From Acidobacteriota bacterium (GTDB taxonomy: Bacteria > Acidobacteriota > Thermoanaerobaculia > Multivoradales > JAGPDF01), in assembly GCA_012521815.1 (NCBI GenBank), contig JAAYLR010000070.1:1-49397 (forward strand): DNA of 49,397 bases, written 5' to 3'. How positions within the stretch are numbered: position 1 is the first letter of the stretch; each line of letters starts with the position of its first letter. Both the position numbers and the translations under genes were made by a program. Positions 41,042 through 43,350 of the stretch are shown in pieces. A model generated the notes under the pieces. That model did no database searches and was not told where the DNA came from. It saw only the letters and a list, made by a program, of their open reading frames with translations.

Positions 41042-42301
41042 TCAGGCTTCGGGCGTCTCCCCGAGCATGAGGGAAAGCGCCTTCTCGTGCCGCAGCTGGG
41101 CGCGGAAAGCCCGGAGCTGACCGCTGCGATCGAGCTGCTGGCGAACCGTCATCGCGGAGTGGCCCTGGCTCCGCCCGAGCGCGGCGAGGGCCGCCTCGAA
41201 CTCCTCCTCCGGCACCTCCAGCTCCTTCGCCTCGGCCACCGCGTCGAGGAGAAGGCGGGCATGCACCCGCCGCTCGGCCTGCGGCTTGAGCTGGTTGCCG
41301 ATCCCCTGCCAGTCGATCTCCGAGCGCTGCAGGTCGACGCCCCGCAGCGCCAGGCTCTCGGCGTACTCGCGCATCAGGCTCTCGGTCTCCTCCCGCACCA
41401 CGCCTTCGGGCAGCGGCAGCGGATGGCGCTCGATCAGCTGGTTGAGCAGCGCCTGTTCACGCTGCCGCCGGCGCTCCCTCTGCTTGGCCGTCCGGAGCTG
41501 CTCGCGGATCGACTCGCGCAGCTCGGCGAGCGTCGTGAACTTCCCGACGCGCGCCGCGAAGGCGTCGTCGAGCTCGGGCAGCACCGGCGAGAGCAGCTCG
41601 CGGAGGGTGACCCGGAACCGGCGCACGGTCGCGTTCTCCCCCTCGCCCTCGCGGCGCTCGAACTCCCGGTCCTGGCCGACCTCGGCGCCCACCAGCGCCA
41701 GGCTCAGCTCCTCCCAGACGCGGGGCGCGCCGATCTCGACCTCGGTCTCCTGCGGTTCCGGTTCACCGCTCCCTTCTCCGGTGAGCTCGACGACCTGCAG
41801 GCGGGCGCGGTCCCCGTGGGCGGCGGAACGGGTGGCGGGCACCCAGTCCGCGGCCTGGTGGCGCAGCTCGCCGAGCGCGGCCGCGACCTCTTCGTCCGCC
41901 GGCTCGACGGCGGGGTCCGGCAGGTCGAAATCGACGATGTTGCGCAGCTCGATCGCCGGCCGCGTCTCGACGGTGGCCGTGAAGCGCAGCGGCTCACCGG
42001 CCTTGTATTCGATCCCCGCGACCTCGGGTGCGCCGAGCGGCCGCAGCTCCCGCTCGGCCTCGGCGAGCTTCCAGTAGCGCGGCACCAGCCGCTCGACCAC
42101 GCGCCGCTCGATCTCCTCGGGGAACTGCCGCTCCACGAGCGTCACCGGCACCTTCCCCCGCCGGAAGCCCGGCAGCCGCACCTCGCGCGCGAGCTCGCGC
42201 ACGACGCGCCCCGATTCGGCCTCCACCGCCGCCGCCGGCACCTCGACCTCGAGCCGCGTACGGCAGGGGCCGGTCTTTTCCATTGCAAGCACGACGCTCA
42301 T
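41042..42301 (-). CDS. tig: Trigger factor (ribosome-associated chaperone)
   Basis: Binds nascent chains at the ribosome exit tunnel. 419 residues. The N-terminal ribosome-binding domain has the signature region [20 protein letters not shown] (classic GFRxGKxP). A divergent PPIase domain (about 150-240) is interrupted by a Glu-rich segment ([15 protein letters not shown]), and the C-terminal helical arms end the protein. The PPIase active-site aromatic pattern is not obvious, so isomerase activity is uncertain. ATG at 42301; two tRNA genes lie just upstream on the same strand, possibly sharing the promoter. Confidence 0.93.
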
Positions 42302-42358
42302 CGTCGGTTCTCTTCCTCTCTGTCGGGTTCACCCGGGAGGTTCGCCACGCCGGGGGGA

Positions 42359-42447
42359 TGGTGCGAAAGGGGGGACTCGAACCCCCAACCCGATCACTCG
42401 GGACTAGATCCTAAGTCTAGCGCGTCTGCCAGTTCCGCCACTTTCGC
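42359..42447 (-). tRNA. tRNA-Leu(UAG)
   Basis: The minus strand folds into a class II tRNA: acceptor stem GCGAAAG pairing CTTTCGC, D-arm GGCGGAACTGGCAGACGC, anticodon loop CTTAGGA with anticodon TAG, a long variable arm (TCCCGAGTGATCGGG region), T-arm GGGGGTTCGAGTCCCCC, discriminator A and an encoded CCA (42361-42359). It reads Leu codons of the CUN box. It lies 50 nt after tRNA-Lys and 57 nt before tig. Confidence 0.97.
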
Positions 42448-42497
42448 GCTGCCTGGCCCCGGACGCCGCAGGGCCCCGGATCGGGCACAAGGGGGGG

Positions 42498-42573
42498 TGG
42501 TGAGCCGCGTAGGACTTGAACCTACAACCCGCAGATTAAGAGTCTGCTGCTCTACCAATTGAGCTAGCGGCCC
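42498..42573 (-). tRNA. tRNA-Lys(CUU)
   Basis: A 76-nt tRNA on the minus strand. The acceptor stem GGGCCGC pairs with GCGGCTC (one G-U pair), D-arm GCTCAATTGGTAGAGC, anticodon stem-loop GCAGA-CTCTTAA-TCTGC with anticodon CTT, T-arm GTAGGTTCAAGTCCTAC, discriminator A and encoded CCA. It decodes AAG. A promoter-like TTGCGC-18 bp-TATAGT lies 10 nt upstream of the 5' end. Confidence 0.97.
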
Positions 42574-42583
42574 GCCCGGGGAA

Positions 42584-42613
42584 ACTATAAACAGGGAACG
42601 CCCGGCAGCGCAA
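42584..42613 (-). promoter_or_regulatory. Promoter of the tRNA-Lys/tRNA-Leu (and possibly tig) transcript
   Basis: Minus-strand -35 TTGCGC (42613-42608), 18-bp spacer and -10 TATAGT (42589-42584). The mature tRNA-Lys 5' end is 10 nt after the -10 box, so the primary leader would be only a few nucleotides. A short GC-rich discriminator (TTCCCCGGGC) follows, as often seen at stable-RNA promoters. Confidence 0.55.
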
Positions 42614-42630
42614 CCCCCGCCGGGGCGATC

Positions 42631-43308
42631 TCAGAGAAGGCTCTTGATCTCCGCGCGGCCGACGATGGAGACGGCCGAGATGATCAGCGCCGCCGTGCCC
42701 CGCGCGAACTCCGGCATGTCGATCGCGACCTCGAGCCGCCCGTTCCGGTCGGTCTCGCCGGCGTTGACGATCCTTGGCTCGGCCACCGTGGAGAGGATCT
42801 TGATCTGGACCTGGGCGCCACCGACCGGCTGGCCGCTGCGGCTCGTGGAGGCGCGCACCACCACCTGATTGCGCACCCCGGGCTCGATCTCGCCACCCTC
42901 CTCGACGGTGAGCACCAGTTGATCGGTCTCCGACTCGCTGGAGAGATAGTCGAGGATCACCTGGTCGAGCGTCGGGCCGGCGGCCGCCTCCGGCCGCAGC
43001 ACCGTGGCTTCCGTCGTCGGACGCGGCGTCGGCCGGACCCCGAACTGCGCGGTGAGCTTCTCGTCGAAGCGGCCGGCGCGGATGGCGGCGATGATCGTCC
43101 GGTGCTGGTGCTCCATGAGCGAGGCGACCGCCTGCTCGCCCTTCCCCTCGGCCATGAGCGCCGCATAGTTCGAGCGCTTCGCGGCGAGGACCTGGCCGCC
43201 GATGTAGATCACGCTCTCGATGAACGGGTTGTTCATCCCCTTGTCCTCGGTCTGGACGTGGAGGACGAGGTCACCGTGGCGTACGTCGGTGTTGTAACCC
43301 GTGATCAT
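42631..43308 (-). CDS. Uncharacterised protein with GYNTDV N-terminal domain and Ig-like C-terminal domain
   Basis: A 225-residue protein without a signal peptide. The N-terminal region, ITGYNTDVRHGDLVLHVQTEDKG followed by NPFIESVIYIGGQVLAAKR, resembles a short conserved beta-hairpin domain found in uncharacterised proteins of Acidobacteriota and Deltaproteobacteria. A helical middle segment (ASLMEHQHRTIIAAI) and a Pro/Thr-rich linker follow. The C-terminal third (VVVRASTSRSGQPVGGAQVQIKILST ... RNGRLEVAIDMPEF) is a carboxypeptidase-regulatory or Ig-like beta-sandwich. Function unknown. It has the best promoter in the window, 43 nt upstream of the ATG at 43308. Confidence 0.7.
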   Translation of the reverse strand: MITGYNTDVRHGDLVLHVQTEDKGMNNPFIESVIYIGGQVLAAKRSNYAALMAEGKGEQAVASLMEHQHRTIIAAIRAGRFDEKLTAQFGVRPTPRPTTEATVLRPEAAAGPTLDQVILDYLSSESETDQLVLTVEEGGEIEPGVRNQVVVRASTSRSGQPVGGAQVQIKILSTVAEPRIVNAGETDRNGRLEVAIDMPEFARGTAALIISAVSIVGRAEIKSLL

Positions 43309-43350
43309 CTGGTGCGGTGGCGGAAAAGGCGCGGAGCCCGCGATTGGCTG

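Follow-up and report, generated by a model that had tools for sequence, protein, structure and literature searches.

The stretch of DNA analysed here, referred to as the window, comprises 49,397 nucleotides of a genome assembly (the source genome, G000) of 2.95 Mb in 243 contigs, and the gene under study is located on its reverse strand, with the features compiled in Table 1. The original prediction had described an open reading frame for 225 residues with the motifs GYNTDV...HVQTEDKG...IYIGGQVLA, all of which are present, and had considered its product an unknown protein. The latter view is ruled out by the N-terminal half: residues 1-83 match the 83-position NCBIfam model RomY_Nterm (NF053858) with 98 bits, compared with a cut-off of 50, and a match of the N-terminus to a well-characterised domain is what the prediction itself had named as evidence against it. 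The model, taken here as a description of RomY from M. xanthus on the strength of its name, is matched by all 17 members of alignment A1, and both the whole protein and the N-domain model find a single match each in the source genome. The nearest named relatives come from MAGs of Thermoanaerobaculia and other Acidobacteriota (79% identity for the best), which very probably places the window in that class, and the search via sequence for a solved relative returned nothing convincing, the best profile match being ketol-acid reductoisomerase at E 0.023. By its sequence, the gene is the romY orthologue of a Thermoanaerobaculia-type acidobacterium, a member of the RomY family by its N-domain and a variant by its C-domain.

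Table 1. Features of the romY locus in the window.
Feature	Position	Strand	Basis
romY ORF, 225-aa RomY-type protein, probable MglB co-GAP	42631..43308	(-)	ORF list and NCBIfam NF053858
RomY N-terminal domain, residues 1-89, four antiparallel strands and helices	43042..43308	(-)	NF053858, AF2 model
Linker, residues 90-112, partly disordered, variable length	42973..43041	(-)	pLDDT and length variation
Conserved helix, residues 114-127, LDQVILDYL motif	42928..42969	(-)	alignment and model
Macroglobulin MG4-like beta-sandwich, residues 129-225	42634..42924	(-)	fold comparison; Pfam below cut-off
sigma-70-type promoter TTGACC-17-TAGAAT, 42 nt before ATG	43379-43351	(-)	consensus score, conservation

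The N-terminus (MITGYNTDVRHGD...) is devoid of a hydrophobic signal segment, as judged by inspection, and a direct reading of the sequence finds no cysteine in the protein. The lack of a signal peptide had been recognised from the outset and regarded as a puzzle, which dissolves with the family assignment: RomY of M. xanthus (MXAN_5749, 188 aa) and its partner MglA are described as cytoplasmic (PMC9481161), and an absent signal peptide is to be expected because RomY acts as a cytoplasmic co-GAP in this organism. Downstream of romY, on the same strand, follow tRNA-Lys, tRNA-Leu, tig, clpP, clpX, and lon (the four protein-coding genes named by eye), with a gap of 57 nt between romY and the tRNA. 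Among 80 named loci of relatives, both tRNAs lie on the romY strand in 34; 33 loci contain tig, 34 clpP, and 31 clpX; 22 of the 47 loci without tig carry Holophagae-type names, and some of the others end at the contig end. The order romY-tRNA-Lys-tRNA-Leu-tig-clpP-clpX (window 41042-43308) recurs in Thermoanaerobaculia-type relatives, although the presence of a polarity gene at this place has no obvious explanation.

The predicted structure bears out the proposed two-domain make-up, i.e., an N-domain and a C-terminal region folded as an Ig-like or macroglobulin-like beta-sandwich. The AlphaFold2 model of the full-length protein has a pLDDT of 87 and a pTM of 0.47, and the low pTM would fit two domains joined by a flexible linker. 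When modelled alone, the N-domain reaches a pLDDT of 93 and a pTM of 0.83, and 17 of its columns are invariant among 25 sequences. Foldseek returned no match to its fold at E 0.001 or better, and a comparison by VIA-align 2 against 999 chains gave a best Z of 5.8, in a range that the tool calls common; actin-capping protein (rows at Z 4.5-5.3) was not believed to be a fold relative. Within the linker, residues 97-108 have pLDDT values below 50. In the helix that follows, L114, D115, and L122 are invariant in 17 sequences; one further locus, L116, gave no start motif and was dropped. The seven-strand sandwich spans residues 131-224, and in successive blocks of ten residues from 131 onward the pLDDT lies at 86-98. 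Three proteins of the same phylum (L259, L260, and L262) end just past the LDE...YL helix and lack the sandwich; they are the three read as N-domain-only forms among ten stretches fetched, the motif filter having given no RomY frame in the others. A helix of the type LDxhhhxYL is conserved in the long forms and in these three short ones, and the sandwich is best described as an add-on, because RomY forms without it exist in the phylum. Weaker second stretches resembling the RomY N-domain occur in some genomes of the order, at G021:C210, G037:C221, G045:C502, G034:C47, G013:C103, G034:C14, and G045:C686; in three of these seven (G021, G037, and G045:C502), an in-frame TGA lies within the matched stretch.

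The sandwich most closely resembles macroglobulin domain 4 of the complement components C4 and C5, with a best Foldseek E of 1.6e-5, and its superposition on complement C4b by VIA-align gives Z 10.8 and an rmsd of 2.5-2.6 over 93 aligned residues. The first rows outside the macroglobulin superfamily appear at Z 9.1, compared with 10.8, such that the predicted domain is assigned to the macroglobulin fold by a modest margin and as a likeness of fold only. The Pfam models MG4 (PF17789; 17.2 bits, gathering cut-off 24.7) and bMG3 (PF11974; 15.3 bits, gathering cut-off 34.9) remain below their cut-offs on the C-terminal half, and bMG3 is matched at E 0.01 or better by 8 of 17 family members. When the helix and the sandwich were combined in one profile, 167 of 396 genomes of the phylum gave a match, namely 164 of the 242 RomY-positive genomes and three lacking a RomY match; up to 11 candidates per genome were scored, and the 78 RomY-positive genomes without a match may include misses. 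A literature search found no RomY architecture with a macroglobulin or Ig-like domain.

With respect to transcription, the original prediction had singled out the sigma-70 match upstream of the gene as the best in the window, and this assessment is confirmed. The romY promoter agrees with 10 of 12 consensus positions, and its spacer of 17 nt falls within the 16-18 nt allowed for the sigma-70 hexamers; the only other window site with at least 9 of 12 positions scores 9/12 (24519-24491), and shuffles of the romY promoter stretch yield 0.2 sites on average. The pattern TTGACC-N16-18-TA[GC]AAT occurs once in the 2.95 Mb of the source genome, a count that refers to sites modelled on the romY site and leaves other near-consensus promoters aside. 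In the 59 genomes of the order it is found 90 times, in 35 genomes (backward control: 4), and in 24 of the 45 RomY-positive genomes it lies upstream of romY on the same strand, 14-195 nt before the start codon; the 45 include G033, which has no N-terminal match and is absent from the site table. Under a looser rule (at least 9/12 within 150 nt upstream), 17 of 29 orthologues carry a site, compared with 0.46 expected from shuffles, and 12 do not; L012, with 1 nt of upstream sequence, was dropped from this count. The romY promoter is more than a chance resemblance, because its pattern has a single match genome-wide and the orthologues retain a site far more often than expected. In relatives, 23 further sites were inspected, of which two precede asnS-like (asparaginyl-tRNA synthetase-like) and two rnpA-like (ribonuclease P protein-like) genes, both named by eye, one precedes a tRNA-Ser (ARAGORN), and the remainder are mixed. 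The simplest reading is a promoter of the housekeeping type; a special, non-housekeeping promoter for romY is conceivable and yet not supported, given that housekeeping genes also follow some of these sites.

High expression, which had been deduced from the strong promoter, does not follow and is not established, because romY lacks a Shine-Dalgarno sequence (window 43309-43330): the predicted pairing amounts to 0 kcal/mol, compared with -5.7 to -13.6 kcal/mol for six other genes of the window. In 29 orthologue leaders the median is -3.2, close to the -2.9 obtained for shuffled copies of one leader, one in ten of which reaches -6.0; most of the leaders have no clear Shine-Dalgarno sequence, and a few orthologues possess one, e.g., L005 at -10.7. 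In five species the -10 element is only 14-25 nt away from the ATG, and their leaders would be very short. Elsewhere in the window, a strong terminator-like hairpin at 21221-21192 (-) consists of 13 pairs, 11 of them G-C, followed by TTTTCATTCA.

The partners expected for a RomY protein are encoded in the same genome, at a distance from romY, which is not adjacent to mglBA. Contig C189 carries mglB (172 aa) followed by mglA (194 aa); in phmmer, MglA matches chain 6hjh, named MglA, at E 5.7e-96, and MglB matches 6h5b_B at E 1.1e-51. A second Roadblock protein, on contig C116, matches MglC (7ct3) at E 2.1e-12. The names MglA, MglB, and MglC-like follow these PDB sequence matches; among the NCBIfam matches listed, none gives MglA, MglB, the MglC-like, or the RomR-like protein a name above its cut-off, with MglB at 85 of the 200 bits needed and MglA scoring 25.5 against the 42.5 of small_GTP. 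With Pfam, the score of MglA falls narrowly short of the Arf cut-off (19.8 vs 22.3), and both Roadblock proteins exceed theirs. The RomR-like protein, picked by eye after 14 of 21 receiver-domain loci had passed the frame filter, consists of a receiver domain joined by a Pro-rich linker to a C-terminal helix ...REVAWEVVPDLAEVA... with the tail AWEVVPDLAE; among its best rows (the best 25 of 95 NCBIfam families), only receiver domains were matched. The published C-terminus of RomR is described as acidic, and both a Trp and a Pro in it as invariant (PMC3441718); Trp394 is followed eight residues on by Glu402 (PMC12719032), and the tail found here fits these features, so that the RomR-like protein is named by its anatomy. 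With its Gly21, MglA agrees with the MglB-associated form described in PMC3983030; this residue was discarded as a discriminator of this form, the long paralogues sharing GPGL. One such paralogue is a second MglA-like GTPase, 61% identical (contig C129:30672-31250, L266), whose open frame of 394 aa includes a linker rich in Pro and Ala and additional C-terminal sequence; many genomes of the order encode comparable long forms (51-63% identical).

RomY and MglA travel together. In the order sample of 59 genomes, each is present in the identical 45, and Roadblock proteins are found in 43 of these, the source genome included. The 14 genomes without a match to RomY, MglA, or Roadblock (G010, G018, G025, and 11 others) represent a single evolutionary event, because all belong to one genus, g6, which would fit a loss of the entire module there. 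In the phylum sample of 396 genomes, RomY was found in 242 and MglA in 265 (both in 241, RomY only in G370, MglA only in 24, neither in 130), with up to 8 candidates per genome scored, so that absences may include misses; all 60 families with RomY fall within the 68 with MglA, which leaves 8 with MglA alone. No Roadblock match at E 0.001 was obtained for G014 and G024, both RomY-positive members of the order, and the sole one in G005 is weak and MglC-sized (E 3.6e-6, 127-aa frame). The long paralogue is what MglA matches best in each of these three genomes, and in G014 and G024 it carries the C-terminal extension. RomY may thus also act without MglB, by analogy with Bdellovibrio, unless mglBA fell in assembly gaps.

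Given the family membership of the N-domain, the partners in the genome, the co-occurrence across the phylum, the predicted anatomy, and the conservation of the promoter, the romY product is likely a co-GAP that raises the action of MglB on MglA-GTP, equipped with a macroglobulin-like add-on and a conserved vegetative promoter. Transcription would most likely start from this sigma-70 promoter; the N-domain would most likely dock onto the MglB dimer with MglA-GTP and raise the GAP activity of MglB, such that MglA-GTP would be removed where MglB is concentrated, which in Myxococcus is the rear pole. The add-on domain probably adjusts where or how tightly RomY binds, for instance by docking to a polar partner; a polar scaffold is a reasonable guess in view of PMC10329633. 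A bolder version, which we put forward tentatively and hold to be doubtful, sees the macroglobulin-like domain, which RomY carries in most of the Acidobacteriota sampled, as a second anchor of high affinity that would hold on to a polar scaffold such as RomR/MglC or to RomY itself, with rear-pole GAP activity set by recruitment via this domain in place of the low affinity for MglB proposed for M. xanthus.

The conserved promoter could mainly serve tRNA-Lys, tRNA-Leu, and tig-clpP-clpX by read-through, with romY as a passenger, as the widely kept same-strand order, the tRNA orientation in 34 of 80 loci, and the short gap in the window might suggest. We regard this as rather unlikely: the gap extends to several hundred nt in many relatives, a direct reading reveals a TATAGT -10-like element just before tRNA-Lys, and the 24 genomes that keep the site have it before the romY start codon, at the distances given above. 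The likeness of the sandwich to extracellular macroglobulin domains of complement would suit an Ig-like protein that is abundant and either secreted or exposed at the surface, an idea that is highly improbable for a product that has neither signal peptide nor cysteines, whose gene has no Shine-Dalgarno sequence, and whose N-domain type belongs with the cytoplasmic MglA and MglB.

A role of RomY mainly with another partner, such as the second, long MglA-like GTPase or RomR directly, is distinctly unlikely. It would account for G014 and G024, with G005 as a similar case, and it has a precedent in Bdellovibrio bacteriovorus, reported as lacking MglB (PMC3983030), where RomY (Bd0164) binds RomR directly in the POLAR assay (PMC11025332). 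Against it stand the Roadblock proteins in nearly all RomY-positive genomes of the order and the behaviour described for M. xanthus RomY, which by itself showed no GAP activity and, when overproduced without MglB, left reversals unchanged (PMC9481161). The reading of the romY product as a co-GAP of MglB is preferred. MglA, MglB, and RomR had earlier been listed for some Acidobacteria (PMC3441718, PMC3983030); the literature search found no paper linking RomY and MglA to Acidobacteria, and the term 'Acidobacter' is absent from the main text of PMC9481161. With RomY added, nearly the whole Myxococcus module becomes nameable in the phylum, and its co-GAP commonly carries an extra folded domain. 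This turns into a testable question whether the extra domain replaces the low-affinity, concentration-dependent rule for the location of the GAP complex.

In M. xanthus, RomY is described as enhancing the effect of MglB, a Roadblock protein with GAP activity, on MglA, a Ras-like GTPase; residues 8-89, which form the N-domain, suffice for partial activity, the model past residue 90 is of lower accuracy, and a C-terminal motif is partially conserved (PMC9481161). RomY helps in Myxococcus to turn MglA off at the rear of moving cells, and a low affinity for MglB has been proposed for M. xanthus. The acidobacterial protein shares with it the N-domain of the NF053858 kind and the company of MglA, MglB, MglC-like, and RomR-like proteins; it differs, as far as the description in that paper allows a comparison, in the MG4-like domain past the N-domain, and its gene has tRNAs and tig-clpPX as neighbours. 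Bdellovibrio likewise encodes a RomY homologue alongside MglA and RomR (PMC11025332), and it differs in its lack of MglB from the source genome with its mglBA pair. Finally, the C-domain has the seven-strand beta-sandwich of the MG4/bMG3 domains, with complement C4/C5 rows up to the Z given above; unlike these, it stands alone on what is presumed to be a cytoplasmic regulator of a GTPase, with no other macroglobulin part.
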